Source: a virus. From it: a stretch of DNA of 64,000 nt. The stretch's first letter is position 1, and every line of letters begins with the position of its first letter. This document shows positions 4,786 through 27,500 of this stretch, one piece after another. The notes beneath the pieces were generated by a model. The model was not told the origin of the DNA and ran no database searches. It saw nothing but the letters and a program-made list of their open reading frames with translations. Location: IMG/VR virus record IMGVR_UViG_3300006735_000001, positions 49,578 to 113,577 of that record; one strand, 5' to 3'. The position numbers and the translations under genes are program-made.

Positions 4786-5256
4786 TTAATTTTTGTTGTT
4801 ACTTATTGTTTTAAATTTTTCTGCCCCTCTAGAACCAAAATATGCTACATAGACAGTTATTAAAAGTGACTTGAGTAAATCTACCCAGCCACCGTCAATA
4901 CTAAAGTCTATATCAAAACCATCTAACAATATAAATATAACTAATGAAACAGTCAAAAATATTAACGTTAATGGTCTTGTATTTTTAGATAAGTATGAGT
5001 CAGACTTCATATCTGCCTGCCATCTCTTACTTACTTCTTGCATCTCAATCATGTCTTGTTCAAGAAGCTTCAATGCTTTTTCTTTGTCTTCTGGTGGCAA
5101 TACAATATCAGGCTCCTTTTGTATAAGACCTTTAACAACACCCAATAGACCTGCATCAGGCAATGCATCACCAACTAAACCAACAATACTTGGAACTTTC
5201 TCTGTTAGGAATTTTCCAACCTTAGTTTCACTAAATCTTTTCTTTGGCTTACTCAT
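4786..5256 (-). CDS. Holin, GTA/3-TM holin superfamily
   Basis: A 156-residue protein. It would form pores in the inner membrane late in infection. Residues 75-98 carry the superfamily signature: VSKRWQADMKSDSYLS, then RPL directly before a membrane helix (about 97-113). A second helix covers about 126-142, and a first, more amphipathic one, about 22-47. The 'W..DM.SDS.LS...RP' pattern is what I know from the 3-TM holins of gene transfer agents and many phages. The N terminus is basic. It sits among small basic genes and a fibre gene. No separate endolysin gene is visible in the window; the nearest muralytic domains are inside the 2185-residue virion protein. Confidence 0.75.
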   Translation of the reverse strand: MSKPKKRFSETKVGKFLTEKVPSIVGLVGDALPDAGLLGVVKGLIQKEPDIVLPPEDKEKALKLLEQDMIEMQEVSKRWQADMKSDSYLSKNTRPLTLIFLTVSLVIFILLDGFDIDFSIDGGWVDLLKSLLITVYVAYFGSRGAEKFKTISNNKN

Positions 5257-8098: not shown

Positions 8099-9724
8099 AT
8101 GGAATATAATAAATACTACTGGCTTAATGAAGACAGCCGCACATTTTTATCAAGAGGATATATAACAGAAGAACCAGAACAAAGAATAAAAGACATAGCA
8201 AATACAGCAGAGAAATATCTACACATGCCCGGTTTTGCTGAGAAGTTTGAAAAATACATGTCTAAAGGATTCTATAGTCTATCAACACCAGTATGGATTA
8301 ATTTTGGAAAACAAAAAGGACTGCCTATAAGTTGTTATGGATCTAACATAGATGACAATCTAGATAGTATACTCAATGCAGGCCGTGAAATAGGTATGAT
8401 GTCTAAATATGGCGGAGGTACAAGTTGTTATCTTGGTAATATAAGACCTAGAGGATCGGTTATATCAACAGGAGGACTAGCAGATGGTCCTGTGCACTAT
8501 GCTAGAATATACGATACTGTGGTAGATGTATGTAAACAGTCTGAAGCAAGACGTGGTGCTTGTGCTGCTTATCTACCAATAGAGCATACAGACATTGAAG
8601 AGTTCCTAGATATTGGAACTGAGGGAAACTTAATACAAAATTTACAGTATGGTGTTACTGTAAGTAGTAGTTGGTTAGAACAAATGCGTGCTGGTGATAA
8701 AGCTAAACGTAAAATGTGGGCTAAAGTAATTCAAAGAAGGAGTGAGTTTGGTTATCCTTATATAATGTTTACGGACAACTCAAATAACAATAGCCCATAT
8801 AAAGAAATAGGAATGAAGATCACTGCATCTAATTTATGTTCTGAGATTCAGTTGCCTACTGATACATATAACTCATTTGTATGTTGTTTAGGTTCTATAA
8901 ACTTATTGCACTGGGATGAAATTATTAAAACAGACGCTATAGAAACATATGTGTTCTTTTTAAATGCTGTTATGGATGAATTCATTAAAAAGGCTGAAGT
9001 AAAAGCTGGCCTTAAAAGAGCATATAACTTTGCTAGCAAACATAGAGCTATTGGTTTAGGAGTATTGGGATACCATAGTTTATTTCAATCAAAACTAATA
9101 GAGTTTGAGTCACTAGCAGCTAAACAATTAAACAATCATATATTTAAACATTTAAAAGAAACGTCAGATGAAGCATCAAGATGGTTATATCAACACAGAG
9201 GATACAGATCCTTACGTGAAGGATATGCAAACACAACTCTTATGGCTATTGCTCCTACTAAATCAAGTTCATTTATCCACGGTGCTGTATCTATGGGTAT
9301 TGAGCCAATAAAATCTAATTACTTTATTAAGGACCTTGCTAAGTCTAAGACTATATACAAAAATCCATTTCTTGTAGAAGAATTAAATAAGTATGGATTA
9401 AACACAAAGAAGACCTGGGCAAGTATACTTAAGAAAGATGGATCCGTACAACACTTGGACTTTCCAACTAAAGCTGTATTCAAATCGTTTGTTGAGATAA
9501 CACCTAAAGAGTTAGTTTTGCAAGCTGCACAAAGACAGAAGTATATTGATCAATCACAATCTTTAAATCTTATGATACATCCATCTGTATCTGCTAAAGA
9601 TATAAATGCATTATATTTATATGCACATGATGAGGGCGTGAAAACTTTATACTATCAGTTTAGTCAAAGCTCTGCTCAAGACTTTGCTAGAAATATATTA
9701 GAGTGTTCTAGCTGTGAAGGTTAG
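8099..9724 (+). CDS. nrdA: Class I ribonucleotide reductase, alpha subunit
   Basis: A 541-residue catalytic subunit, shorter than bacterial NrdA (about 700-760), because it begins almost at the catalytic barrel and lacks the N-terminal ATP cone; allosteric shut-off by dATP through a cone is therefore not expected. Active-site residues are visible: C79 (PISCYGS) with C262/C263 (VCCLGS) as the redox pair, N245-x-C247-x-E249 (NLCSE) with the thiyl-radical cysteine, the tandem tyrosines at 518-519 (LYYQFS) for radical transfer, and the C-terminal C536xxC539 (ECSSCEG) that relays electrons from thioredoxin or glutaredoxin. The stop overlaps that of the convergent lipoprotein gene by four bases. 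No inteins or introns are seen. Confidence 0.93.
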   Translation: MEYNKYYWLNEDSRTFLSRGYITEEPEQRIKDIANTAEKYLHMPGFAEKFEKYMSKGFYSLSTPVWINFGKQKGLPISCYGSNIDDNLDSILNAGREIGMMSKYGGGTSCYLGNIRPRGSVISTGGLADGPVHYARIYDTVVDVCKQSEARRGACAAYLPIEHTDIEEFLDIGTEGNLIQNLQYGVTVSSSWLEQMRAGDKAKRKMWAKVIQRRSEFGYPYIMFTDNSNNNSPYKEIGMKITASNLCSEIQLPTDTYNSFVCCLGSINLLHWDEIIKTDAIETYVFFLNAVMDEFIKKAEVKAGLKRAYNFASKHRAIGLGVLGYHSLFQSKLIEFESLAAKQLNNHIFKHLKETSDEASRWLYQHRGYRSLREGYANTTLMAIAPTKSSSFIHGAVSMGIEPIKSNYFIKDLAKSKTIYKNPFLVEELNKYGLNTKKTWASILKKDGSVQHLDFPTKAVFKSFVEITPKELVLQAAQRQKYIDQSQSLNLMIHPSVSAKDINALYLYAHDEGVKTLYYQFSQSSAQDFARNILECSSCEG

Positions 9725-10227
9725 TCTCTTCTAGGAATTCCTTTACTTTTTACTACACTAGGAACCCGTGGTTTTGAGTTTGTATTATTTCGCTGTACAT
9801 TAATAGTAGATCTTGTATTATTTATATTGTTATTCCAACTTTGTATATTTATATTTGATCTACTGTTGACAGGCGGGACTACAATATTATTACTAGTTCT
9901 TGGGCCATTTATTCTAACTCTTGGTTTCTCAACCTTATCCGGCTTAATATATAGATCTCTAAAATACCATGTCTGTGGTCTATATATTTGATACCCAAAG
10001 TTATAGGGCTGGTTCCAATAGTAGTTATTCCAATTATTGAATCTATAGTTATCAAATACATTTACATAATTATACTTCTGGAATTCTTTTATAGGTATAG
10101 CAACTGTATCGCCTGCAGATGTTATAGTTAAGACTTTAGTAATTTTTAATTTAGGTGTAGTCTCTAAGTTATAAACTCCACAACTCAAAATACTATGCAA
10201 GCATAATAGTAATATTAATTTTTTCAT
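9721..10227 (-). CDS. Lipoprotein, Asn/Arg-rich
   Basis: A 168-residue protein. A short hydrophobic signal ends in a lipobox (ILSC, Cys16), so the mature protein should be lipid-anchored. Residues 60-95 are very rich in Asn, Tyr and Trp (including NNWNNYYWNQPYNFGY). The C-terminal third is Asn/Ser/Arg-rich, low in complexity and basic. It ends the envelope cassette that begins with the outer-membrane barrel and overlaps the SNase gene by four bases. An outer-membrane spanin is conceivable because the cassette also has a membrane-plus-coiled-coil protein, but the length and composition are not typical. Function unknown. Confidence 0.6.
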   Translation of the reverse strand: MKKLILLLCLHSILSCGVYNLETTPKLKITKVLTITSAGDTVAIPIKEFQKYNYVNVFDNYRFNNWNNYYWNQPYNFGYQIYRPQTWYFRDLYIKPDKVEKPRVRINGPRTSNNIVVPPVNSRSNINIQSWNNNINNTRSTINVQRNNTNSKPRVPSVVKSKGIPRRD

Positions 10228-10628
10228 AAGCCTCGTTTATTGGTGTTAAGTGTTTTTTTCTTACCCCCGTCATAGACATATGCATGCCCTTCTTCTATTA
10301 AAGTTTTACAGACATCAATCTGCAAGCCTTGTTCATTCTTTATAAATACTTCTGCAAGAACCCTGCCGTACTTTCCAGTACCGTATGAGCGTATTCGGAA
10401 GAAACTCTTATCACACGTCTGTTCTGTCAGCATTTCTTTAGTTCGTGCCTTAGCCGCAAGTCCTTTTTCTTTCTCTTCTAAATCCTTCGTTCTGCACTCC
10501 CAAGTATCTAAACCGTAAAATCTAATTCTCTTTTTGACCCAGGTATCAAAACCTAAATCAATCATTGCGTCCACAGTATCTCCGTCAACTACTCGTAATA
10601 GTCTAGCTTTATATATATATTTTTCCAT
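10224..10628 (-). CDS. Thermonuclease (SNase-like)
   Basis: A 134-residue staphylococcal-nuclease-fold protein that would hydrolyse DNA and RNA phosphodiester bonds with Ca2+. Motifs in order: VVDGDTVDAMIDLGF (residues 13-27, metal side), RFYGLDTWE (R36, D41, T42 and E44, matching R35, D40, T41 and E43 of the staphylococcal enzyme) and GKYGRVLA (R89, matching R87). All catalytic positions are kept, so it should be active. No signal peptide is seen, unlike its neighbours, so it probably acts in the cytoplasm, for instance in host nucleic-acid breakdown. It overlaps the lipoprotein gene by four bases and follows the thioredoxin-fold gene by four. Confidence 0.88.
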   Translation of the reverse strand: MEKYIYKARLLRVVDGDTVDAMIDLGFDTWVKKRIRFYGLDTWECRTKDLEEKEKGLAAKARTKEMLTEQTCDKSFFRIRSYGTGKYGRVLAEVFIKNEQGLQIDVCKTLIEEGHAYVYDGGKKKTLNTNKRGL

Positions 10629-10632
10629 AATA

Positions 10633-11031
10633 TTAAAATTGACTTGCCTCAGATAAGTCGTTTATATCAGACTGTAACTTATCTAGATCTACAGGACACT
10701 CAAGATCTAATCCGGCTTTATATGTAAATTCTTTGAAACCCTCTTTAAATATTATAAGTGTGGGGGCCATGCGTATTCTATATTTTTTCTTTGAATCTGG
10801 TGAGTCAGCTATATTACATCTATAGTATTTAACTCCTGTAAGTTTTTCCCAGTCTTGAAAAGCATTGTCTTTATTAAAGTCTGCATAAAACTCAATTACA
10901 ACTATCTCATAATCTTCTTCAAAAGCATTGTTACCTGAAATGGCACTATCAAACTCTTTATCTGTTACCCAGTCTTGGGCCACTACTTGTGTCCCTACTA
11001 GCAGTAATAATAATGTTAGTAAGTACCTCAT
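10633..11031 (-). CDS. Secreted thioredoxin-fold protein without CxxC
   Basis: A 132-residue protein with a clear signal peptide (LLTLLLLLVGTQVVAQ, cleavage near residue 19). The mature part fits a thioredoxin fold: strand IVVIEFYADF, a helix, strand YYRCNIADS, then RIRMAPTLIIFKEG with the usual cis-proline and the following strand. Where thioredoxins have WCGPC it reads ADFNKDN, so it lacks the redox pair and should not exchange disulfides; it may act as a binding or chaperone-like module in the periplasm. Sits between the membrane/coiled-coil gene and the SNase gene with gaps of 3-4 bases. Confidence 0.65.
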   Translation of the reverse strand: MRYLLTLLLLLVGTQVVAQDWVTDKEFDSAISGNNAFEEDYEIVVIEFYADFNKDNAFQDWEKLTGVKYYRCNIADSPDSKKKYRIRMAPTLIIFKEGFKEFTYKAGLDLECPVDLDKLQSDINDLSEASQF

Positions 11032-11034
11032 AGC

Positions 11035-11325
11035 TTATTTTTTGGTTAGATCATAGATTCTCTCTTCCATCTTCTCAAACTTTTCTAGCAGCATCTCTAC
11101 ATCTTCTTGAGTTTCCATTATAGTCTGTCTGACAAGTTCATCTTTAAGATCATACTCAACTCTATTTATTGGTGGTTCAGGCATTTCCATTGCATGAGCT
11201 ATATCAGCTTGAAGTGTAAACCACATTGTTGCTAATGTAATTGTAAACCCTACAATCATACCTATTGTTTTTAAATCTAAAGTTACTTTAGTTTCTTCTC
11301 CTATCTGTGGTGCCTGTTGTGCCAT
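11035..11325 (-). CDS. Single-pass membrane protein with coiled coil
   Basis: A 96-residue protein. A polar N terminus is followed by one membrane helix (about residues 20-40, IGMIVGFTITLATMWFTL). The C-terminal 45 residues form an acidic/basic heptad-like helix (VEMLLEKFEKMEERIYDL). This is the general layout of an inner-membrane spanin or of a small holin-associated protein, but no specific family is recognised. Lies 6 bases after the barrel gene and 3 bases before the thioredoxin-fold gene. Confidence 0.55.
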   Translation of the reverse strand: MAQQAPQIGEETKVTLDLKTIGMIVGFTITLATMWFTLQADIAHAMEMPEPPINRVEYDLKDELVRQTIMETQEDVEMLLEKFEKMEERIYDLTKK

Positions 11326-11331
11326 TATTTA

Positions 11332-12567
11332 TTATTTAAATGAAAAGTTTAAACCTATACTACTTTGGTATAACTCACTATCCCAGAATTTACCATATTC
11401 TCCTTCTATAAAGACACCAAAGTTTTTACTTAATTTCCATCCTAGATTGATACCTAGATTGTAATCTTCCCATTGTTCATGCTGTGAGTCTTCTATTAGT
11501 CCGCCTTTACCCCAGTTGTTTCTATTTAAATAACTAAAGTCCTCATCCCCAGTAATATATGTGTGATTGGGTAATATATAATTAGCATAAGCATGTAACC
11601 AAAATTTACTCTTATAATGATAGAAGTCAAAACCTACTATAGGTGCTATCTCTCCAAATTCACTAATAAGGTCCCATTGTTCATTATTATATCTATTAAT
11701 AAGATCTCTAAATACTGAATTTCTAAAATCTAAATCTGAGTATGCCACTATATTTCCGTCTGCATCTTTCCAAATCCAGTCTTGTCTTTCTTCACCTGTG
11801 GTCACATCCGTGTAAGTTGTATAATGATCTGTGTATCCATATTCAAAACCTAAAGAATACCATGGATTAATAGGGTACTCAACAACTTCACCTTCAGGTG
11901 TTGTAAATGTTTCTGTTTCATTCAACCATATTTCAATGGGGTTATATCCGTAAGCACGCTCATGAGTACGGTAGATAGCACCAGCTGAAATACTAAACTT
12001 TTTTCCAATAGGCAAGCGTAGTCTGGCCTCAGCAGACTTATAGTTTAGGTTAATACTTCCTACTTCTCTTGATTCAGCTTTAATTATATGATATTTACCT
12101 GTATGCTTAACAAATATTCTATGATTATTGAATTCTTCTCCACGGAGTCTTTCTTTTTCTATGTGAAACTGATACTCTAATCCTGCTAGAGCAGAGGTTG
12201 GTGCAGTAAATGCCAGTTGTTGTTCTGTACCATCATACCAATTTCTTGGTTTTCTTTCATAGCTAAATCTGGCCAGCTTTCTGATTCCAAATCCTATTCT
12301 ATAATCAAAGTCATAGTACTCTGTTACATCTACTACACGGGGTATACCATAAAGATCTCCTTCATCAGGTCTCTCTACAAAAAAGTCTTGTCTGCTTGTC
12401 TGATAGGAATTACGTGCATCACCTGCTGCATATACAGTTCCATACTGTAAAAAGTCTTGGTATAATGCCTTGAAGAACTTACCTTTTTCTTTTACTTCTT
12501 GTGAGTGAGAAGCATTAGGTAAAAACAAAAGTAGTATAAAAACCAACAGACTTAAATAGTTTTTCAT
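11332..12567 (-). CDS. Phage-encoded outer-membrane beta-barrel protein
   Basis: A 411-residue protein. A signal peptide (LLVFILLLFLPNASHS, ending near residue 22) is followed by alternating amphipathic strands rich in Tyr, Phe and Trp, for example FDYRIGFGIRKLARFSYER, LGFEYGYTDHYTTYT and FWLHAYANYI. The last strand ends in aromatic/hydrophobic alternation (SIGLNFSFK), the typical C-terminal targeting strand of outer-membrane barrels. No TonB box or plug is seen. It is the first gene of the cassette 12567-9721 and has its own candidate promoter at 12605-12622. Possible roles are altering the host surface (for example superinfection exclusion) or helping disrupt the outer membrane at lysis; neither is shown. 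Confidence 0.72.
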   Translation of the reverse strand: MKNYLSLLVFILLLFLPNASHSQEVKEKGKFFKALYQDFLQYGTVYAAGDARNSYQTSRQDFFVERPDEGDLYGIPRVVDVTEYYDFDYRIGFGIRKLARFSYERKPRNWYDGTEQQLAFTAPTSALAGLEYQFHIEKERLRGEEFNNHRIFVKHTGKYHIIKAESREVGSINLNYKSAEARLRLPIGKKFSISAGAIYRTHERAYGYNPIEIWLNETETFTTPEGEVVEYPINPWYSLGFEYGYTDHYTTYTDVTTGEERQDWIWKDADGNIVAYSDLDFRNSVFRDLINRYNNEQWDLISEFGEIAPIVGFDFYHYKSKFWLHAYANYILPNHTYITGDEDFSYLNRNNWGKGGLIEDSQHEQWEDYNLGINLGWKLSKNFGVFIEGEYGKFWDSELYQSSIGLNFSFK

Positions 12568-12604
12568 ATTTAAAGTTTAATATTAATCTAGTTTAATGTT
12601 GGTC

Positions 12605-12622
12605 TATAAATATAATATACAG
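12605..12622 (-). promoter_or_regulatory. Candidate late promoter motif, copy 2
   Basis: On the minus strand: CTGTATATTATATTTATA, 37 bases upstream of the barrel gene's start. It is one base longer and slightly diverged from the copies at 6771, 41400 and 60906. Promoter role inferred. Confidence 0.4.
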
Positions 12623-12664: not shown

Positions 12665-15600
12665 TTATTTAATAAAGAAATCTTCCATAGTGGAGTAACT
12701 ACGCCATTTATTAAACGTATGTAATATTGGTAATGCATCTCCCCAGTTTTTCCATAATTTTAATTTACCTTTTCTTTTTCCTTGTTGATAGTATACATCT
12801 TTGTTAGCTTTAACATCTAAGTCACTTTGTACCATATAGTAAAAAGGTGTTTCTAAAGTCATCCATAGTGCCTCTGATAATTCTCCCATTGTTCTTGTTG
12901 AAGCAATAGGTGATTTAACCATTTGCATTTGTTGAGTACCACCAGCTATAGGAAGGAACATTACTAATTCAAATAAAGTTCTATCTGCTTGATATTTTAC
13001 AACATTTTTCAAACGTTTAACTGTTTCACTATCATCATCATCACCAGATAAAATAGAGCTAAAGATTATTGAAGTTATTAATACACTCATCATAATACCT
13101 ATCTCACCCATAGTTCTATAAAAACCTTGAAGTTTATTCATAGCTCTTTGGTCTTTGTTACCACCCTCTCCAGTATACCCATAGTCTGCTAAAAAACCAT
13201 CTTTATAGTTAGTTCTGATTTCTCCTTTTTTAACCTGCTCAAATACATAACTTAAAAACTTCATAAAGGATACATATCTACCTTCCATAAATCCTAAGTT
13301 TTCATCAAAGTATTCTGTTTGATATCTTGCTCTAATTGCAGGAGCAACCCACTTATGAAATTGTGCAGCCAATTTACCAACAGTAATAGATTGCATAACC
13401 ATTCTATCTTCTTTAGCATAGTTACCATGAATCTGTTTATTGACTTCTCTTATTTCATTTCTAATATCATATCTTATTTTATTATACCATTTTTCAAAAG
13501 AAACATTACCTTCAGGATTAAATGTATCTGACTTACCATTTATTCTAATAATAGTATCAAATCCAGGTCTTAATTCATTTTTATGTGTTTCTGGATTATA
13601 ATCAAAGGCATCATAAAATGAAATTTGTTCCTCAGTCTTACTATTTTTTACTTGCGTATCAATCAAAATAGCCATACCATTTTTTGTTTGTACATTATAT
13701 TCTGCCGCATCCTGTAGTATATAACCCCACTCAGCTGCACGTGCAAACCAACTCTTATTATTTGATGTTGACTCTGTCTGTTCACGCAATTGAGACATGG
13801 GGTCCATCATTCTAAAAGAATCTACAAAAGCTTCATATTTACTATTAGGCTTAGTAGAATCATATGAGCTAACATTTGCTCCTGGTATTAAGCCTACAGT
13901 AATTAAGTTTCCAAAATCTTTAGCACCTGTATGAGAAGTTCTATAAATTAAATCAGGAATTGCTCTTTTGTTAAATATCATTTCAGCTCTAACGTAAGCT
14001 GATCTGCTATAGAATCTACCCCCTAATGCTTCAATAGCATTATTTATTCTACCAATAACATAGTTATTAAAGTTACCAAATGGATTAAATGCTACATATG
14101 CTAATGAAGATATTTGTATAAGTCCATCTGCAATTTTATCCCAAGCACCCTTACTTACATTTTCGTTATCATAGTAAACCATGCTCATAAACTTTTTAGC
14201 ACGTCTGACTATGTTTGCTTCTACTTGTGTTTCAGATTGTTTCTTACCAATTTTTTTAAATACTCCATTAATTACCTTACCTAAGTCTAAAGAAGGATCA
14301 GAATCCCCATATTCTCTTTGTCCAATCACCTGCAGATAGGCTCTTAACGTATCTTCTATTTCACCCATAACAGAATAATTTTCTGCCATTGCTGTAAAAG
14401 CTAAAATACTTTCTCCTAAATCTGTATTTATTTCACCAACAGTTGGAGTTGCTTCTAGTTGTTGGACCTTACCTCTTAGTGCATACATTTTTTCTTTATA
14501 CTCATCTTTTTTAATATTCCCTTTCTTACGTTCTTCTTTTAAATCAGATATTTGTTTTTCTAATTCTACTATTGCCTCTGTATCTTTCGGACTACCCACA
14601 TAATAAATAGGTAATGAAGAAACAATATTTCCTAATTCATCTGTAACAATTGTCTTTTCACTATAAGTTCCTGTAAATGCACCCCAAGCTTCTTTACTAA
14701 TAATTTTGCTAAAGACTTTATTTACAAAAGTAGGTTTCTTAGTCATGTCTTTAATAAACTTATCCTTCTGTAGTGGTACCTTATTTATCATCATTGTTCT
14801 TATACCTGGGTCTAGTTTGGATAATAACTCATCTTGATATAAGTCCAGAACAATATTTTCATAAAATTCTTTTTGTGCAACACCTAATGCATCTGTAGGA
14901 TTCATTATTTCTATATATTGCTTACTCATCATATTAGTGCCATCTGCTGCTACATCTCTAACCTCTATAAACTCTGGCTTAACAAAAGGTCTGCTAGGCT
15001 TAACATTTTCAACAACCACACCATTAAATTTACCATCAACTTTTATTGCCTTTGTATAAGGATTTGGAGTTTGATAATATTTATTTTCATATACTGCAAA
15101 CTCTCCAGTACCCACATACTTATTTCTAACCAACCAATATCCAGGGGATCCTTCATTTCCCGGATTCCATACTTCATACTTATCTCTAGCATTTTTAAAC
15201 TCTTGTGTATATTGATGATAATTACCTGCTACAGGCTGACCAGTTTCTGGATCTTTTTGTTCAGCTCTTAAAAATAATCCAAAGTCTTCTTTAGCTTGAG
15301 CAAGCCTAATGTTGTTTTTTATATCTTCTTCAGATGCTACATCTAAATCACTTACAGGTGCATAAACATATTTTGTACCTGTGTTATCAGATAAAGGTGC
15401 ATAAAATTGTGCTTTAAGTATATCATACTGTGCACCAATTCTTTGAACAATATCATTTCTAATACCACCTTGATCATCTTGTGCAAAGGCAAACTTAAAT
15501 GCTTCTTTTCCTTCAAGTCCTGATAGTTGTAATACTGGGTTGGCAAATCTAGCAATTCTATCTTTTTGTAATTGTACTTGATCTAATAATTCTTGATTTT

Positions 15601-18574
15601 TAGATTTAAACATTTTTGCCATAAGCGCTAACATTACATCTGGAGATGTATCCATATCTCTTGTTTGTAACTCAGTGCCGTTTATATCTTTAGTATATCT
15701 AATAAGCTCTTCTAAATTTTCTTCAGTAAATAAACTATTGATACCACCATAATCTCTATTAGATCTTGCCTTAATATCTGCCTTTACAAAATCATCTACA
15801 GCAGTTCTAATAATAGGAGGTTGATCTCCAACACCTTCCTTTAACTCATTCAATAAACTTGTTAATCTAAAATATAAAGACTTCTGTACAGCATTAAGAT
15901 CTTTGTTATCTTTCAATTGATGTAGTCCTCTGAAAGTCGCTGCAAATCTATTATAATTTAAAACATATGTTATGTAGTTTCCATCATCCATATTACTAGG
16001 ATCTAAAACATACTCTTTAAATGCTTTAATTTCATCTATAGAGTCTTTTAAAAATGATGTGTATGCTGAACTTGCTTTTATACCACCTTCTTGTAATGCA
16101 TAACCTATGTAAGATATATGCATTGCAATTCTATCTCTTTGCTCAAGTTTAGTTCTATTTCTAAAGATATTACTTCTTATAGCTTTTTCAGCTTCTTGTA
16201 CTGATATAAGACCAATTCTAAAATTTTCTAGTGCAGCAAGTATAGAATTATATTCTGGATATACTTGTTTATTTATAGTACCTTCTTCATCACTAAAGTC
16301 TTCATCTTTTCCACGGTAAGGTTTGTTAGGATCCCCTTGTGTTTGTCTATCAAGTTTATCTGCTTCAAAATTATCTAATGTTGCAGGTATAATTTTATTT
16401 ATTTGAGGTTTGAATTGACCTGGTGGATGTTTTGTCACACCTTCAAACTTAATAGTACCAAAAGTTTTATCCTTTACAATTTTTATACCTTTTTCATTTC
16501 TTAATGTCTCACCGTCTTTAGTTTCATACACATCTTTTATTCCTGTACTAAAATGTAAAGTAACTACGTCAGATCCGTCCTCACTAAAATCAAATTCATA
16601 TCCCATATTCTCCAACATCCTTCTATAGAGATTTACCTGAAACATTTGTTGAGTCTTTAAGGTCATACTATCCACACCTGCATTAAATACTAAACTACCA
16701 CTTTGTTCAGGTTTGAATGGATATGATGTATCGCTATATGGATTTATAACTGGATCCCCTACCTTCTGACCTTTTCTCTTCTCATATATACTATTCTTAG
16801 ATGTTTTAAGATCTAGTATTTTAATCTTACCTTCTTCTGTAATAATTATTACATCAGCTGTACCTGCAATTTCAGTTGCCTTATCAAAAAGAGTAACTTG
16901 TGTTAACATGATTGAGCCAGCAGGCCTAAATGTATCTAATGCAGTTTCCAAAGCAATTGATATTCTAGTTACATCTTCAACTTGCATTTGATCTAAAGAA
17001 GCTTTTAGTACTCTAAGTTGAAATGATTTTGTTCCTGCAATTGATGAATCCTCTGGAGACTGTGCAATTTCTTTTTCTAACTTATCTATTTTTAATTTAG
17101 TATCCTTAGTAATGTTCTCTAACATTTGTTCTGGAGTAAATAAAATAGAATTTGATTGCATATTAGTTACAACATAATCTAATAATGCATCTACTTGATT
17201 ACCTACTTCTATTTCTAAAGTAGCATCATAATCTATCTGTAAATCACCTTTGATAACATTAGTTACTGATCTGTATTCTTTACCTGTGTTTAAGTTATAA
17301 TATTTATGGTCTGGTTCGTTTAATGCTACTATATCAGTAGGGGTATCCACATTTGCATTTACAGCTAATGTAGATACTTCTTCATCTAATTTAGTAGATA
17401 CCATAGTCATTCTATCTACTAGAGTTCTCTGCAGTGAGTTACCTTTACTTTTAGCAGCATCAACTTGTTTTTGTTTTTCATTTGATAAACTAAATCTCAC
17501 TCTCCCATTAGTAGGTACATCAAGTTTGAACTCTATTCCTTCTGTATTTAGAAGTTTAGCAATATCTGTAAGAGTTGTATTAGGATTTATTGCTGTAACT
17601 GGTATAGCTCTACCGGTAAGATATTCATTTAAATTCTTTATAACTCCACTGAACCATTCTAAAAAATCTTTTATCTTATCTAAAAAAGATTTGGTTGGTT
17701 TAGTTTCATATTCTCTTTTAAAGTGTCTAGTTAATGCTTGCGTTACTATTTCTATGTTTCTATCTGTCTCATTAAAACCCCTATCATTATTATAAGTATC
17801 TTTTATTTCTTGCACCATTGATGGAAATGTTTTGCTAGCCTCAGCTAATAAACCATCATATAGTTCTTTATTATCTAATCTAACAGACTCTATAAAGGGG
17901 TGCATCATTTCTTCTATAGCAGTTTCATCTGTAACTCTTCCTTGAATTAAATAAGCTGTGCCATCTACATAAAATGAGTTTGCGTCTTGTTTTATTGAGT
18001 TAGGAAATGATTTTAGTAGAACATTTGCTTGACCGGGTGTAATCATTTTTACTTTTATACCAGGGAATAACCTCATAAGATGAGTTACAACTGCTCTTGA
18101 TCTAGGAGTATCCCACCCCCTTGATTTATCTATCATATCTTTAGGAGAAAACATATCGTCATTTACAGTAACTCTAAATGATTCTTTTGTTCTTGTAAGG
18201 CTAATTGTATCTTGAGGAATATTATTTATATCTAAATATCTTTTTAACCTTTTAACGTTAGATTGCAAAAACATTTCATCATATTCTCTTGTAGCTGGAT
18301 TTGAATTGTTTACATAGAAAGAATCTTTAAAGTTATGACCTATCCTTTCTCTGCGTAAATTAGATAATAAAGACTCACCAAATAGTTTTTGCTTTAAAGA
18401 GAATGATTTTTTCTTTTGATTTAAATAAGTTTCAACTTCAAAAGGTGTTGGAAAAACATTTGTATTATTTACATCTTGCCAACCATTAATAATATTATTA
18501 GTGTCTATTTCACTTTTATATATATTATTAATTATCTGATAACCCGGATCATTTATATTAAAACACTTAGCCAT
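12665..18574 (-). CDS. Large virion-type protein with PD-(D/E)XK nuclease domain
   Basis: A 1969-residue protein. Residues about 425-660 form a RecB/Cas4-like nuclease domain: it opens with PDHKYYNLNTGKEYRSVT, then D574 (in GTADVI), D588-L-K590 (in KILDLKTSK) and Q646-x3-Y650 (in FQVNLYRRML), the order and spacing of the PD-(D/E)XK exonuclease family. Upstream, TAIEEMMHPF (residues 219-227) looks like an HExxH metallopeptidase motif whose first His is Glu, so probably inactive. The middle (700-1800) is a mostly helical region without recognised domains. A hydrophobic segment near residues 1820-1840 (IGIMMSVLITSIIFSSIL) is followed by an Asp run. It lies 3 bases after the 4769-residue gene, so the two are surely co-expressed. 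Inferred to be a virion protein ejected with the polymerase; the nuclease could act on host or competing DNA. Confidence 0.72.
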   Translation of the reverse strand: MAKCFNINDPGYQIINNIYKSEIDTNNIINGWQDVNNTNVFPTPFEVETYLNQKKKSFSLKQKLFGESLLSNLRRERIGHNFKDSFYVNNSNPATREYDEMFLQSNVKRLKRYLDINNIPQDTISLTRTKESFRVTVNDDMFSPKDMIDKSRGWDTPRSRAVVTHLMRLFPGIKVKMITPGQANVLLKSFPNSIKQDANSFYVDGTAYLIQGRVTDETAIEEMMHPFIESVRLDNKELYDGLLAEASKTFPSMVQEIKDTYNNDRGFNETDRNIEIVTQALTRHFKREYETKPTKSFLDKIKDFLEWFSGVIKNLNEYLTGRAIPVTAINPNTTLTDIAKLLNTEGIEFKLDVPTNGRVRFSLSNEKQKQVDAAKSKGNSLQRTLVDRMTMVSTKLDEEVSTLAVNANVDTPTDIVALNEPDHKYYNLNTGKEYRSVTNVIKGDLQIDYDATLEIEVGNQVDALLDYVVTNMQSNSILFTPEQMLENITKDTKLKIDKLEKEIAQSPEDSSIAGTKSFQLRVLKASLDQMQVEDVTRISIALETALDTFRPAGSIMLTQVTLFDKATEIAGTADVIIITEEGKIKILDLKTSKNSIYEKRKGQKVGDPVINPYSDTSYPFKPEQSGSLVFNAGVDSMTLKTQQMFQVNLYRRMLENMGYEFDFSEDGSDVVTLHFSTGIKDVYETKDGETLRNEKGIKIVKDKTFGTIKFEGVTKHPPGQFKPQINKIIPATLDNFEADKLDRQTQGDPNKPYRGKDEDFSDEEGTINKQVYPEYNSILAALENFRIGLISVQEAEKAIRSNIFRNRTKLEQRDRIAMHISYIGYALQEGGIKASSAYTSFLKDSIDEIKAFKEYVLDPSNMDDGNYITYVLNYNRFAATFRGLHQLKDNKDLNAVQKSLYFRLTSLLNELKEGVGDQPPIIRTAVDDFVKADIKARSNRDYGGINSLFTEENLEELIRYTKDINGTELQTRDMDTSPDVMLALMAKMFKSKNQELLDQVQLQKDRIARFANPVLQLSGLEGKEAFKFAFAQDDQGGIRNDIVQRIGAQYDILKAQFYAPLSDNTGTKYVYAPVSDLDVASEEDIKNNIRLAQAKEDFGLFLRAEQKDPETGQPVAGNYHQYTQEFKNARDKYEVWNPGNEGSPGYWLVRNKYVGTGEFAVYENKYYQTPNPYTKAIKVDGKFNGVVVENVKPSRPFVKPEFIEVRDVAADGTNMMSKQYIEIMNPTDALGVAQKEFYENIVLDLYQDELLSKLDPGIRTMMINKVPLQKDKFIKDMTKKPTFVNKVFSKIISKEAWGAFTGTYSEKTIVTDELGNIVSSLPIYYVGSPKDTEAIVELEKQISDLKEERKKGNIKKDEYKEKMYALRGKVQQLEATPTVGEINTDLGESILAFTAMAENYSVMGEIEDTLRAYLQVIGQREYGDSDPSLDLGKVINGVFKKIGKKQSETQVEANIVRRAKKFMSMVYYDNENVSKGAWDKIADGLIQISSLAYVAFNPFGNFNNYVIGRINNAIEALGGRFYSRSAYVRAEMIFNKRAIPDLIYRTSHTGAKDFGNLITVGLIPGANVSSYDSTKPNSKYEAFVDSFRMMDPMSQLREQTESTSNNKSWFARAAEWGYILQDAAEYNVQTKNGMAILIDTQVKNSKTEEQISFYDAFDYNPETHKNELRPGFDTIIRINGKSDTFNPEGNVSFEKWYNKIRYDIRNEIREVNKQIHGNYAKEDRMVMQSITVGKLAAQFHKWVAPAIRARYQTEYFDENLGFMEGRYVSFMKFLSYVFEQVKKGEIRTNYKDGFLADYGYTGEGGNKDQRAMNKLQGFYRTMGEIGIMMSVLITSIIFSSILSGDDDDSETVKRLKNVVKYQADRTLFELVMFLPIAGGTQQMQMVKSPIASTRTMGELSEALWMTLETPFYYMVQSDLDVKANKDVYYQQGKRKGKLKLWKNWGDALPILHTFNKWRSYSTMEDFFIK

Positions 18575-18577
18575 AAT

Positions 18578-21500
18578 TTATTTTTTTAATATACATTTTT
18601 TAACATCCTCAACATAGTCTTGTTCACTTTCATACTTCAAATTCTTATCATTAAACTTACCAATAAATTTCTTAAACGTTCCTGCTCCTTGAGCTCTCAT
18701 AATTTTTCTATTTTCTGCACTAGGATTTATTGTGTCTGTCCAAAAATTATAAAGTACAGGATAGATCTCTTCCAAAGATAACTTTAATTCATTAAATAAA
18801 CTAGTTTGTGGGTCAGTCATTTCTGGATTAGATGTATCCACATCTTCAATAGTATATGCTTGGCGCTCATCTTCTTCTACTGCTTCTGAGTTAGCACTAA
18901 TTTGTTCTGCTAGTTTAGCAGTATCTTCTATATTAGTTTCTTTTGCTTCAGGATCTAATTTAACTTTTATTCCAGAATCTTGCATTGGTGTTCCTTGGAC
19001 AGCTGTAATATTACTATTCTGCTGTTTTAATGCCATTTCCTTTACTGCATTCTCATAGCTTGATATAGGAGCCATACTTTCTCCAGGCATTATATCACTA
19101 GATTTTTGATTTTCTGATCTATATTTATTTAAATCATTTGTTGATATTAAATCACCAAACATAAAACCTATACCATTTTGTCTAGGAGAACCTTTAGTTG
19201 ATTCAAGAGAATAAGTGACAGTCATTTTTTTCTGTATATCTTGAACATCCCATTCTTCCATTGCCACTGCTCTACTAACTGTAGGTCCGTCTTCACCTTG
19301 TACTAAATAATTAAATGAATACAATCTAGGGCCTCTGTAAAAACCTTTATCATTTCTTATAGGTTCAATACCAAGATCTCTATAATATTCTAACCAGTCA
19401 ACAACTAATGATTGAGTACCTTCAGGAGTTATTTCAATAGAAACACCCACATCAGAACTACTCAAAGTAAATACTTTATCATTTGATGCAGCAGCAACAG
19501 TATATCCTTTTATAAATTCATTTATTAAACTTCTTATATCCTGTCCAAACACAGTGTCTATAGATTGTTTACCTCTTAGTGCATCATTAACTGTATTTAC
19601 ATGTGATAAATATTTATTTAAAATGTAAGGGTTTACAGCATCTAATAAAGTTCCATAACCAATCTGTAGACCATCTTTTACCATCATATAACTAACAAGA
19701 TTCATTGCGTCTTGTCTAGTATTAGGTGACCCATATAATCTACTAAATCCATTTTGTAAGTCAACTTTCATTAGAGAGTTCATCACTCTAAAAGTATTTG
19801 CCTCAGCTAAATTAAGCCCTGACTTACTGTTTTTAGAATCTGTAACTATTAAGAATCCATTTAAGAAATCATTATCAACTCCTTCTGGTGTTTCTTTTAA
19901 TCTATTTACAATATCAACAATGTTTTCTTGTTTAGATGGATATAATATATCATTTGTTAGTCCTCCAACCACATGACTCTCATTCTCCATCATATTATTT
20001 CTATAACCTTTAATGGTTAAGTATGATAATAAATCTAATGATATCTTGTCAAGCATCTCTTCATTGGTGGCTTGATTAGTTAAATCCATTTGATCAGCTA
20101 TTAAACTCAATATCTCTTGAAAATCTATAGATGATCTAAGAAATGTAGCAGGTAATAAATTATTAGTTAGTAAATTAAAACCTTCTATGTATGTACCATG
20201 CCATGTATTAGGACCAAAGACTTTATTTAGATTTATTGGTGCATCTTTATCAAAAAGCTTTTCAATTTGTTTTTTTCTTCTTGATATATTCTGCATTGAT
20301 TTACCAAGACCTTTTGTTAATCCAGTAACTGCAGCCATATTGTTAGTAAACTCTTGTAGTCTACTTGCTTTTGCAAACTCTCTTAATATAGAAAGATCTA
20401 CATCATAAAATTCTGCTGGATCTAAATTTTCATTATAATTTGCATTAATATAATCAGACATCATTTCTGAAGTCAACTTAGGAACTGAAGGCTTTTTGTC
20501 ATCAAAAGTATTAAGAATAACAGCAAATGCTTTCTTTATTTCTTTATTTACTCTGTATGGTGAGTAGTTAGATTCTGATGCATTCTTATACACTTGTCTT
20601 ATTGTTGGTGTATTTATTAATAGAATAATAGTTTCCATTGGCATACCCAAACTTAACATATTCATTGCTAAACTTGTAGCATGTTTGTTAAATCCTGCCT
20701 TTCCAACAAATCTATTAGTTGGATTATCTACTGTCATACTTACAATAGCAGCTTTACCATCTTGATTTATTTTTGCTTGTTCAACAGATCCTGGGTCAAA
20801 ACTATTATAAGTAATACCATCTATTATAGGAGTAAATGTTTTATCAGTAATTTCACTTCCAGCCTCAACTAAATTACTAAGATATAAGTTAGGCAATACA
20901 GATGCCCCAATAGATGCCCCTTTGTTGTCTTGGAATGCAATTGCTTGACCTAAAAAACTACTTGGATCATAAGGTGTGTCAGCTCTTTTATCTCTAAAGT
21001 AATTGTTTGAATCTAATCCTATAATTTTTTGTTCTTTTTCCTCAAGTAATTTAAGTGCAGCATTAATTGGCTCTTCTGAGGTTGGCGTGTAAGATATTGG
21101 GTTGTTCCCAGTTGTCATACTTTCATTACCTACTAAAGCAAACTTATAATCTAATAACTGATTGTTGAAGGGTGCCTCAAACGGATAACCATATTTTAGT
21201 TTGTATTCTGAATATTGTGCAGGAGATATAGGAAGTCCAAGTACAGCTAAAGCCTTTGCAGTATCTAATAGCATACCACCCCCCTGTTTGTCTATTGGGT
21301 CAGTAGCAATATCTATTACAGCTGAATCAGGTGAGCTATCTATTCTAGCATCTAATTCATTGTTACTATATAACTCAAATACTGATTGTAGCTGTGATCC
21401 CTTTGCTTTAACTAATCTATTAGAATATCTAACATACTCTAAATACTCTTCTCTTTTATTTTTAGTCTTTCCATACTCCTTGAATACACCATCTTGTACA

Positions 21501-24500
21501 TAAAAATCTTTTATATGTGCAAATGTTTTATCTCCATCATGATCTGAACCTGCAATTTCTATTAACTCTTGAGCATACATTCCAACTGAACCCATAGCTG
21601 TAGGCATAAAGTCTACTAATAAAGATGGTGTAGATGAATGAAAATCATCTGTAGGAATACGTACTGCAAATTGTCTAGCTATAACATTTGGAATAGGAGC
21701 ATTAGTATTTTCTATAAGATCCCTTACTGAAGAATGATGAGCTGGCATTTGCATTTCCATAGCTCTTTCACCCGTGTAAGAATTAGGATTTTTAGGGTTA
21801 CTATATACAGGCACCACTCTTAATCTATCAAGTACTATATAACCTTTAGCTGGTATGTTACCAGGTGTTAAATCTTGTAAGTCTTTCTCTACAGTCAAAC
21901 CTAATCTATCAAAAACTTTATCTCTAACAATTTCTGATCTAGTAGGTATTGTTTCTCCATTAACTATTTCTACATCATATACTCTTCTATATTTTTTTAC
22001 CCCAAATGGTGAAACTAAAGTCAGCTTAACCATAGGTACTTTTTGAGAAAATACACCTTTAGCAAAATAATTTAAAAACAATTGTTCAAACTTAGGTGCA
22101 GTAATTGGGTTATTTAAATTATAATTTTGTTTACCATCAACACTTGAAAAGAATTCTAATAAGTTAGTACTTGTCTTACCTGCTTTTAAACTCTTCTCAG
22201 CAAATTTTAAAAATGCTGCTAGCTTAGGAGTAATGTCTGTGTTATTAGATATATTAAAATCATTTACAGCACTTTCAAATTCATATATTAAATTTCTTTT
22301 ATTATTAAAACTTAGTTTAAACTTTTTGGTCTTTACTTCATTGTATGCTGTTATGATTTGTTTTAAGTCTAAAGCATCACCGTTTAAATCTCTAAGTCCT
22401 GGTACTTTAGTCTTATAAAACTGAACTGGAATATTAGTAATTATTTCAGCTATCTGTGTTGGATCAGGACCTTCTAATTGATTTGAAGGTGTAATCTGCT
22501 GTAACCTCATATGTTTAGCAGATAAAGTTGAGTGAGGAAGAACTTCCAATGCTCCTATATTATCATTTATATCACTCAGTGGTACAACTCTCATTTTTTC
22601 TGCCTTACTAGCACTCAATGGTCCAGCAACTGTAATAGTATCTTTACTAGCATCAATCTTTTCCATTGCTACTCTTAAGTTATGAAGCGTCAACATACCA
22701 GGTTTAGCCTCCCAAACTTGAGTTACTGGATTTAAATTAGAAGTGTATTCTTTAAATAGTGTAGTTATTGTAAATTTTAAATACTTTTGCCCATCAAAAT
22801 ATGCATACTTTTTAGAGTTAACCATATCCTTGTCCTGTACTAGACCTATTGGGGTTTCTTCATTACCAAAATATACAGAAGACTGATATGATTCTGACAG
22901 CCCATCTTCCATAGCATCAAGTAATTGAGCTTGTCCTGTACTTAAAGAATCAGTACCAAATTTTAAATGTCTAAATCCTTTAACAGTAGTATATCCTTGT
23001 GCATCAGCAATATCAATATTATTTTCTATTGGCTCTTCAAATAATATATAACTAATATCATCTGTTGTATGTAATATTCCTTTCTTAGTATCAATTACTT
23101 CTGAGTATGCTGGTGTACCCGCATTGTTATTTCCTTTAGCTCTTTTAGTTATATCTGCAGAGCTTTTAAATAACCTTGCTTGATCACCATGTTGTGCTTC
23201 ATTAAACGCAGCTGCATTTAACTTTTGATTAAAAAATATTTGTCTTAAGTTATATCTAGCATTTGTTGGTATTAGATTTAATGATTCTGAAGATTCATTT
23301 ACATTGTTTCTACTTACACCTTCAGCAACCACTAGTCCATCTTTTACCTTTTTGGAAATTTCATCATATATATTTTCATCAATAAGATATTGAACATAAT
23401 CACTATATTCATTATTCAATTGAGTTCTTATATCTTCTCTGATTTGACTTAATGTATAAGGTGTAAATTTAATAGCATCATCAAAACTAATAGTATTACG
23501 GGCTTGGCCTTGATCATAAGCTACTTTAGATAATTCATTTTTAAATTCTTGACTAAGTAAAGTGGTATTATTAAAGAAGCTAAAGCCCCTCCCCCCTACA
23601 TCATTATAACCTAACACTGTTTCTGTAGCTGTATCAATATTTGATTCTCTATTTATTCTAGTAAACTCATTTTTAATACCATCTAAGAATAAATCTAATG
23701 TCTCATCAGTTATGATTGCATTAGATCCTTCTACCGTTTTTATAACAGGTAATCCAATTAATTCAGAAGTATTAGATGCCTCCATTACTTTAGGAAATAT
23801 AGGAGCAATAGCAGACTCATTACCTTGACTGTCTATTACAGTATCTACTCTACCACTTTTAGTATTAAAGAATGCCGTATATAAATTAATTTGAGTTAAT
23901 GAAAATTCTTTAGGTGAAAAGTTTCCATATGTTTGTGTTCTAAAGTAATCTGTATTATCAATAGATACTCCATCTTCTACATTACTTTCTGATAGTGCTC
24001 CAGAAGCAACTTTTGAACCTTCCATTCTAAGCATTCTTATTTGTCTATCCTGACTCATTTTCTTAAATGCCTCGCTATTAAGTAAAAAATTCTGTTCCTT
24101 ATATGGATCTGCTAGAAGATTATTATAAAAGTCTATATTATTTAGATTATTGACAAACAATAAATTAAATGTAGGTTTCTGATGAGCATAAACAAGATCA
24201 CCATTAGAATTTCTATGTATGGTTGCTCCAACTGTTTCATCAAAAGGTGCATTTGCTATAGATAGTTCTCTAAGTCTACCTAGTATACCACCTTTCTCAT
24301 CAAAAATATCTTGGTTAGACTGCAGTTGCTCACTCAATAAAGACATTGTACTAAAGTCACTCCCTGTACCACTATCTTGAATTACTTTAGCATCTGAATA
24401 TAGTTTCTTTAAAGACTTTTGTTTTTTTGTTTTTCCATTTCTATTTTGCAACAGACTTACTTTGATAAACAAACTGCTTAATTTAATTCCAACATTATCA

Positions 24501-27500
24501 TACAAATCTTGTGAGTATGCTTTAGACATTTTATCTAATGCCTTATCTGTCATTTCATTAGAACCTTTTAGAGCTTTGTCAAAATCTTTTATTTGATTTA
24601 TAACATTTGTGGTTTTATTAGAGTCTGCTCTTAATTTTCTTTTAGCAACATAATAAGCTTGTTGCCACCTGGTAAGTTGTGAATTAATATCATCTTTTTG
24701 AGATGCTGTATAAATTCTTACATCTCCAGCTAATGATCTTTCTACAAATAAATAGTCTAGCCTTACATTAGTAAAGCCATTTATAAATGATTGAAGTAAG
24801 CTAGAGTTTTGTATTTCTGCCGGAAAGGATTCATCTGTTAATAATGATTCAGAACTATAACCAACATCATGTAAAAGCTTTCTAACTATAGCACCTCCCT
24901 GTACGTTATCTTCTCCAAAGAAATACATACTCTTTAAAAAGTCAAGTGGATTAGTAATATTAGATGTAGATTTTAATATTGAATTAAATGCATCTACAAA
25001 ATCTACAGGAACAATTATTCTTTCACCTTTAGTTAAATACTCATTTCCAAAGAAATCTTTTTCAGATACTGAAGTTAAAGCTATATATTTTCTTACATCA
25101 GAAGGAATAGCTTTTAAACCACCTATCAGTGATGCATCTAGATCATATTGTGATACAGTTCTAACTCCAACAGAATCTTCAACATTATCTATATTCTCTT
25201 CTTGAATGACAGATTTATCTGTTATCATTTCAAGTAAATTATCCGCTTGCTCTATAATTAAAGTAGAATAGTTTAAAAATGCAGACTCAATTTGTTTTAA
25301 CTTTTCCTTTTGTTCATCTGTCTTTAAATCATTGACTTCATTATTAGGACTATATAACCATTGATAATCATCTACTACTTCATCAAATATATCTTTAGGG
25401 TTATATGGTAACTCAGCTTTTGCTGATCTTGCCAGGTAGCTTGCCGCTATACCTCTGACTATCATATCAGCTATATTTCCATCTAAGTAATCAAAACCTT
25501 CTGTATCTTTAACAACTATCTTTTTAAAAGGCACCAATGCATTAGCAATTATAGGCCCGTCATTTAATACTGACTCAGTAAATTCATTACTCACTACTGA
25601 TGCATTTTTATATTTACCTGCATCAATATCTTCAAAAGTTCTTTGTAATTGTGAAGTAGTAAACCTATCTATAAAAGCTTTTATAAATTCAATTATTCTA
25701 TTAAATAAAGATTTTACTTCTGTATTTGTATTAGTATTCCTTGGATTTATTTTGAACTTATCAAACTCATCAGACATGTACTCTTCATAGTATAATTTTT
25801 CTAACTGCTTTCTACTCATATCACTATAAGTATTTGCTGAGTTCTTAAATTTTTGTAGTTCTTTCTCAAAGCTTTTACCTTCAGCTCTAAGTTTTGCTCT
25901 TACTTCTTTTCTGGCTACAGATTGTAATCTCTTTTGTTGTTCTGGTGTAAGTAATAATCTATATACAGCATGAAAAGCTTCATGATATTTAAATGGATTT
26001 TGTGCTCCTGTATAAATTGTACCTTTTACATTTAATCCACCGGCTAAATCATTTAAATACATTTGAAAAGCACCTACCCTAACTCCTCCAGCTTTCATAT
26101 TATCACCTAATACTGCTATGTCTTCTATGCTAATGAAGTCTGGTAATATTCTTTCAGCCTCCATCATAAAATCATTAATATTAACTATATCAAGATCATC
26201 AAATACTGGAGTAAATACACCACTTAGAATTTTGTTAACTAACCCTTTATCTTGTCTATCTCTTTCTTTTAATAATTTCTGATACTCTTCATTTTTTTGT
26301 AAAGTTTTAAAATGATCTCTTGGTGCTACACCCTCTAACAAGGATACCTTTAACTCTTCAATTTGAATGTTGATATTATTTTGTTTAACAGGTAATCCTG
26401 GTTGCTTACCATCTCTAAACATTAGCCAGCTAGATTTATTATTTCCAACTTGTGGGATACTACCATCTAATCTATCTTGAATATAGTCAACTATAATACC
26501 CATTTTGTCCATAGAAAAATCATAGTCTTTGGTTATTCTTTTCAGAACCATTTCTCTACCTTTTTCTAGTGTTATCTTTCCGTTCTTTATGCCTTTATCT
26601 ATTGTCTTTATGTAACTCTCTATAGATTTATCTTCTACAGCTTTTTCATCAGAATTTAAATATATGATATCACCATTGCTGTCTTTCCCTTTAGTCTTAG
26701 TTCCAAGAGGTTGGGTACTATTACCTCTCCTTGCAGCACTTTTTGCTTCATATAACTGAGTAGTAAGGCTCTTAAATTTAGCTCTATTTTTATCAGAAAC
26801 CTCTCCTGTAACAGGATCTCTTAAAGCTCGAATCTGTTTCTCAACAGTAGATACAACATCATCAAACTTTTGATTTGGATTAGTAGAAGCTGTTGTAGGA
26901 TTAGGAGCAATAGCTACTTTCATATCAATAATCTCTGAATTAGTGTCGTATATACCTTGTTCTCTTAGAGAAAACTCTCCACCTCTTCTTTTGACTTCTG
27001 CTATTTGATCTAAGAATGCAACTGGTACAGGGACATTACCTTCAACCATATCAGTATATTCTGTCTCAGTTATATCTAGTACACTATTCTCTGCTTCATT
27101 ACTAGTTCGTGCTGGAGTTTGTAATACTGGTCCTATTGGTTTACCAGAATAAGGTTCAGTCATCTGAAAAGTCCCTGATGCATTTGCTGCATCTGGTACA
27201 CCTCTACCAGCATCTATCCCTGCTGAGTTAGCATTTAATCTTACCTTCTGTCCTTTAAATACATTTGTTGCAGTTTTTGTTGTAGTCTTATCTAATATCT
27301 CATCATATGTAGCATCTTCAGGAAATCCTTTACTAAACTTAGCAGGGGTAATCACCACACCAGTAGATTCTATTTCTTCATTTAATCTACTAATTAATGT
27401 AACAAGTTTTGCTTCTACAGAAATCTTAGGATCATTTACTTCATCTCTTGTTAATTTTGGTGTTTTTGTAGCTACATCTTTTTTATTATTTTTATCATAC

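Follow-up and report, generated by a model that had tools for sequence, protein, structure and literature searches.

The window analyzed here, a 64-kb stretch of a 113,577-base virus record, carries a run of five close-packed minus-strand genes (Table 1). The run is headed by the gene for a predicted outer-membrane β-barrel (OMP), which is followed by those for TM96, Trx, an SNase nuclease, and lipo168. The barrel gene had been placed correctly in an earlier, first-pass annotation of this DNA; its reading frame runs on the minus strand from an ATG at 12567 to a stop codon ending at 11332. The same annotation had sent four of the five products to the envelope and, since OMP, TM96, Trx, and lipo168 are all predicted envelope proteins, this holds by prediction. 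Its cassette stood only in part: the conserved unit proved to be OMP, TM96, and Trx, while the nuclease and the lipoprotein were optional neighbors. The lipo168 family, a possible candidate o-spanin, lay within 6 kb in 14/84 loci in one count and in 20/80 in another.

Table 1. Positions of the features within the 64-kb window
Feature	Position	Strand	Details
Holin	4786..5256	-	phrog_3427, E 3.6e-17; ~4.5 kb from the five-gene run
lipo168, 168-aa Asn/Pro-rich predicted lipoprotein	9721..10227	-	Lipobox regex; optional neighbor
SNase-family nuclease	10224..10628	-	phrog_452; optional neighbor, in 7/84 OMP loci
Trx, 132-aa secreted thioredoxin fold	10633..11031	-	Pfam Thioredoxin, 5.8e-06
TM96, 96-aa single-pass inner-membrane protein with coiled coil	11035..11325	-	Begins 6 bp after OMP
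OMP, 411-aa predicted outer-membrane β-barrel	11332..12567	-	ORF, structure models, fold matches, alignments
Promoter-like motif, TATATTAT-spacer-TATA-(A/G)ACC	12601..12619	-	~35 to 40 nt before the OMP start codon
1969-aa gene adjoining the barrel gene	12665..18574	-	Related to crAss001 RNA-polymerase subunit gp49

Gene content places the virus among the crAss-like phages as a distant member, since its terminase is homologous, it carries the crAss001 gp49-like gene, and its portal and capsid proteins match PHROG head families. Among the matches listed (125 records), the terminase was ~25% identical to crAss-like terminases, and its matches take in Bacteroides and Flavobacterium phages; homology of both the terminase and the RNA-polymerase genes is what places a phage in the Crassvirales. 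Upstream of the gp49-like gene lies an unusually long ORF of 4769 aa (window 18578-32887).

The AT-rich TATATTAT motif was conserved upstream of OMP in 9 of the 11 loci compared by eye, and it was present in L005 too, where the five-gene cassette sits elsewhere and in the other orientation. With a stricter regular expression, the copy before OMP was the sole one in four record pieces; a looser expression gave one further match (L087, position 8374, plus strand). Scans allowing three mismatches returned 25 matches in the window against 14.3 expected, and in the other record pieces chance was not exceeded. The pattern suggests that the cassette has a candidate promoter of its own. A role as a general late promoter was rejected, as the stricter expression found no copy at other late genes.

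The barrel protein and its relatives

Both sequence features pointed out in the first-pass annotation are present in OMP, namely a signal peptide at the N-terminus (read by eye) and a C-terminus that closes with LNFSFK; relatives have the same kind of signal peptide and C-terminus. A first AlphaFold model, made with 45 sequences, reached a pLDDT of 73.2 and a pTM of 0.67, and a second, for which the mature protein and a more diverse set of 77 sequences were used, reached 83.4 and 0.75. Fourteen main strands and a helix at the N-terminus make up the second model; its four long loops lie on the expected extracellular side, with topology assigned from the strand list. For either model, all 50 top PDB entries (VIA-align) were outer-membrane or organellar barrels, the best being CymA (Z 12.2) and OmpG (Z 12.1) for the first and TamA (Z 10.8) and OmpG (Z 10.7) for the second. 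The barrel proposed at first pass is thus borne out by prediction, and OMP combines a Sec signal peptide with a predicted membrane barrel, as outer-membrane β-barrel proteins do. Near-tied matches of this kind point, at the level of the models, to a fold and not to a function. OmpG, CymA, and TamA/BamA share the fold (Z about 9-12) and differ in sequence (5-14% identity); a sequence-profile search of the PDB returned nothing relevant and no sequence relation to its barrels, and searches of Pfam and PHROG gave nothing below an E value of 0.1. A closer structural match came from BFVD, in which the unnamed viral protein A0A516LKJ4 (342 aa) aligned with OMP at a Foldseek E value of 1.4e-26 (TM 0.71/0.79). 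Going by the models, it is likely a true homologue, although the two differ in sequence (23% identity).

Scanning with the barrel gave relatives encoded at 75 IMG/VR loci, so that OMP is no chance reading frame. The 44 that were aligned had 58-88% identity to the window protein, and a distant group had 35-37%. Nine further loci came from a scan of genome contigs; each lay in a metagenome-assembled genome, and the taxa of these were mixed. A host origin of the gene was rejected for these, which we read as binned phage contigs. In two loci (L065 and L173) the OMP gene was broken into two ORFs, by sequencing error or decay. A second, small barrel-like gene (L142:13325-13747) was seen a short way past the lysis genes in a 164-kb phage contig; it matched Pfam OMP_b-brl at E 0.0018, which falls short of the curated cut-off.

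It is very improbable that OMP is a virion or ejection protein and not a protein of the host membrane. The idea draws on its position in the window, where it directly follows the gene related to the virion RNA-polymerase subunit of crAss001. However, the signal peptide is retained in the relatives read, the cassette lies in the other orientation beside the RNA-polymerase gene in L005 to L008, and in other backbones it is found elsewhere.

A triad of OMP, TM96, and Trx

Around the 84 OMP loci (75 viral and nine from genome contigs), TM96 was a neighbor in 76 and Trx in 75, and several of the misses were contig ends. Because counts anchored on OMP risk circularity, we anchored the analysis on TM96, for which 155 distinct sequences were available, 106 of them with at least 2.5 kb of flank on both sides; loci under this flank, duplicate TM96 DNA sequences, and truncated or X-containing proteins were left out. 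In these 106 distinct viral loci, whose counts are not independent because the loci share ancestry, Trx was found in all 106 and OMP in 105. The single exception, L151, has TM96 and Trx without OMP, and a search of its whole 106.6-kb record turned up no barrel. TM96 and Trx are adjacent, with a median gap of 2 bp from the last sense codon and at most 30 bp in 147/149; OMP stands either before or after this pair, at most 30 bp from TM96 in 85/147.

IMG/VR contains at least 549 relatives that match TM96. The terminases of 20 of 25 long carrier records matched phrog_6681, with values of 1e-160 or better in some and close to 1e-60 in others and three matches that were weak, and the other five had no match; judged by terminase, the triad appears to occur in different packaging backgrounds. 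Its carriers are crAss-like and other, mostly uncultured, phages, and their hosts are probably Bacteroidota. A tblastn search of 50,697 phage records with the window OMP, two divergent OMPs, three TM96 proteins, and one Trx gave no credible match, and the triad was thus not found in any cultured phage. Likewise, HMM searches of crAss001 (positions 1-69,067) and phi14:2 (1-100,000) gave no convincing match.

TM96 has a single transmembrane segment, an N-in/C-out topology by charge (read by eye), and a C-terminal coiled coil according to hydropathy and heptads. In the 162 members with the anchor motif, seven of the nine a/d positions were hydrophobic in every sequence; of the remaining two, a3 was hydrophobic in 154/162 and d2 in 10/162. 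The positions outside a/d were hydrophobic in an average of 21 of the 162. From these features, TM96 looks like an i-spanin, that is, an inner-membrane protein with a periplasmic coiled coil. A second TM96-like gene was seen beside or near the first in L006, L008, L106, L118, L134, and L157 to L160.

Trx belongs to the thioredoxin-fold superfamily by profile similarity (best PDB match 3.3e-13) and by its retained cis-Pro. The CxxC active site that marks redox-active thioredoxins was absent from 77/78 sequences, most of which have F-N-x-x-N there, and the lone CxxC string lies at position 14, away from the active site. Trx is therefore best described, from its sequence, as a putative redox-dead secreted thioredoxin fold. 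Its C-terminal residue was F or Y in 153/155 (SQF, SKF, NKF, and similar), reminiscent of the C-terminal signals of outer-membrane proteins.

Distance correlations, computed without correction for phylogeny, were 0.78 for TM96-Trx, 0.39 for OMP-Trx, and 0.23 for OMP-TM96 (n=90), and 0.69 for OMP-M15 endolysin (n=53). TM96 and Trx therefore look like the tightest pair, and the weak OMP-TM96 value lends no co-evolutionary support to direct contact between these two. By analogy with T and RI of phage T4, which act together, TM96 could serve as holin or antiholin under the control of Trx as a periplasmic regulator, with OMP sensing the outside and controlling the timing of lysis. Besides the TM96-Trx correlation, this idea draws on the weak PHROG holin matches of 13/29 TM96 members (best 7.2e-05). 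The PHROG matches were mixed: 7/29 members matched Rz-like spanins (best 0.023) and up to 23/29 matched families without assigned function. Weak matches of this sort can come from any protein with a transmembrane segment and a coil. Given that separate holins adjoin the triad in several lineages, with one in the window as well, and that the part of OMP is left unexplained, we consider this explanation quite improbable.

Linkage to lysis genes and proposed function

An endolysin (M15 or amidase, assigned by Pfam) lay within 2.5 kb in 68 of the 106 TM96-anchored loci and was co-directional in all 68; in the other 38, no endolysin was found nearby. Relatives of the window's holin, with holins assigned by Pfam or PHROG, were near in 17 of the 106 loci, all co-directional, and in some related loci adjoined it. 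The control neighbor nrdA (ribonucleotide reductase) was near in 44/106 and co-directional in 19 of these, and shows that conserved position alone can occur. The order of genes varied, with OMP-TM96-Trx-M15, TM96-Trx-OMP-M15-holin, M15-TM96-Trx-OMP, and M15-OMP-TM96-Trx all represented; in one distant lineage, the M15 endopeptidase, TM96, Trx, and OMP follow one another with few bases between genes. The 164-kb contigs have c32-OMP-TM96-Trx-amidase-holin, with an endolysin unrelated to M15 and a holin that matches Phage_holin_4_1 (3.4e-05). In the genome of the window, the endolysin (an amidase, record 21834-22751) lies ~38 kb from the five-gene run, and it is likewise far from the triad in records related to the window phage. 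Of two holin assignments made by eye, that of the two-TM protein c32 gained no support from Pfam or PHROG; that of a 156-aa protein as a GTA-type holin was unsupported by Pfam, but PHROG calls this protein a holin.

As the triad is often found beside cell-lysis genes, it may represent a means, not described until now, of breaking the outer membrane and releasing new virus particles. Our working interpretation, put forward tentatively, is that OMP, TM96, and Trx form a lysis module that spans the envelope, with OMP as its part in the outer membrane; the fold, the layout of TM96, the assignment of Trx, and the linkage were computed, and from these we infer the function. In such a scheme, the endolysin would first remove the peptidoglycan. 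With periplasmic Trx as a bridge, inner-membrane TM96 would then engage OMP, and this engagement would destabilize the outer membrane or bring the two membranes together. The module would thus act like a spanin, with the barrel replacing the o-spanin lipoprotein. In favor of this reading are the near-invariable triad, the co-directional endolysins, a linkage that persists across gene orders, endolysin types, and packaging backgrounds, the hydrophobic a/d positions of TM96, its weak matches to holins and Rz-like spanins, and the scarcity of nearby lipoproteins. Against it stand the distant endolysin in the window's genome and the 38/106 loci with none nearby, the weak OMP-TM96 correlation, the lack of Cys in TM96 and the mature window OMP, the barrel-less L151, and the shared ancestry of the loci. 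More speculatively, the combination of a trans-envelope TM96 coil, a redox-dead Trx bridge, and OMP might constitute a new class of outer-membrane disruption machine, which uncultured phages in large number would use in place of lipoprotein spanins.

Two functions had been offered at first pass. The first, that OMP opens the outer membrane during lysis, is now the better supported, as OMP is fixed to the i-spanin-like TM96 and is often co-directional with endolysin and holin; the other, remodeling of the host surface against superinfection, seems to us somewhat unlikely. There, OMP would block binding or injection by later phages, and TM96 and Trx would aid its assembly. The ordinary outer-membrane barrel fold is compatible with such a role, as are the predicted porin-like barrels in other phages (BFVD) and the motif upstream of OMP, owing to which OMP need not be strictly late. 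Yet its presence in 105/106 TM96-anchored loci is unlike that of a patchy accessory gene, and it is linked to endolysin and holin. The extracellular loops, moreover, came close to the strands in conservation (weighted identity 0.64 vs 0.71 over 158 and 161 residues), lying below them at p 0.0015 on a Jensen-Shannon score. Near-constant presence and well-conserved loops are more readily expected of a core machine than of a surface gene that is optional; as a superinfection-exclusion gene, OMP would be unusually conserved.

A further explanation, which we regard as unlikely, is that TM96 pairs with lipo168 or with the lipoprotein c26 in an ordinary two-component spanin and that OMP and Trx have another envelope role. 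It is in keeping with the presence of lipo168 in the window cassette, with lipo168 or c26 between or beside the triad genes in some relatives, with the lipo168-type lipoprotein adjoining the second TM96-like gene in L006 and L008, and with the Pro/Asn-rich composition of the lipoprotein, which resembles many o-spanins. However, a lipoprotein, recognized by a lipobox regex or as one of the lipo168/c26 families, lay within 3 kb in at most 31/100 loci, whereas OMP is nearly always near; the lipoprotein count is a maximum, since the signal peptides of some Trx proteins match the lipobox regex too. The near-constant outer-membrane neighbor of TM96 is, then, a predicted barrel and not a lipoprotein. 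The record of the window has three lipobox candidates, namely lipo168 and two other small proteins. In the genome of the window, 1.2 kb from the endolysin, lies the gene for a lipoprotein of 59 aa whose C-terminus is hydrophobic (L088:3924-4100; record 23924-24100). Its layout is that of a miniature u-spanin, but we consider it an improbable one, the ~20 residues between its anchors being judged too few to span the periplasm.

Comparison with known systems

By hydropathy and heptads, TM96 has the layout of an i-spanin, a type II inner-membrane protein with a periplasmic coiled coil. Other features of two-component spanins are missing: a lipoprotein coded beside the i-spanin is not the rule, although the window itself has lipo168, and Cys was absent from TM96 (177/177) and from the mature window OMP. 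According to the excerpts consulted of PMC6139136, 507/528 two-component spanins have at least one Cys in one component. Lacking the lipoprotein and cysteine features, the triad falls outside the definition of the two-component spanin family. The same excerpts count 91/677 phages without spanins, Bacteroides and Croceibacter phages among them, pose the opening of the outer membrane by spanin-less phages of Gram-negative bacteria as an open question, and state the possibility that an OMP could act as o-spanin; one survey, as excerpted from PMC12596118, gives only u-spanins for Bacteroidetes phages. The triad is not described in the consulted excerpts of either paper, and our literature searches, one of which was swamped by unrelated matches, gave no description of a module of OMP, TM96, and Trx. 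It is a concrete and widespread candidate for the OMP-as-o-spanin possibility and, if the lysis reading is true, would provide a mechanism of lysis based on a barrel, together with marker genes by which the lysis modules of uncultured phages could be recognized.

Like the triad, Rz/Rz1 of phage lambda and PseT.3/PseT.2 of T4 pair a small inner-membrane coiled-coil protein with an outer-membrane partner. They are often found beside endolysin and holin, as is the triad in many loci, though not in the window's own genome. The triad differs from these two-component spanins in that the partner is a 14-strand barrel and not a small lipoprotein, in its third member with a thioredoxin fold, and in the lack of Cys in TM96. 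The unimolecular spanin gp11 of phage T1 acts on the outer membrane in lysis, as proposed for the triad, but is one lipoprotein with a C-terminal transmembrane segment, whereas the triad consists of three proteins and its outer-membrane part is a barrel. Phage surface barrels near lysis or late genes have precedents in porin Lc of the lambdoid phage PA-2 and Lom of lambda, both known as lysogenic-conversion genes. These are the precedents for the superinfection reading and resemble OMP as phage outer-membrane barrels coded near late or lysis genes but, unlike OMP, do not form a constant unit with TM96 and Trx.
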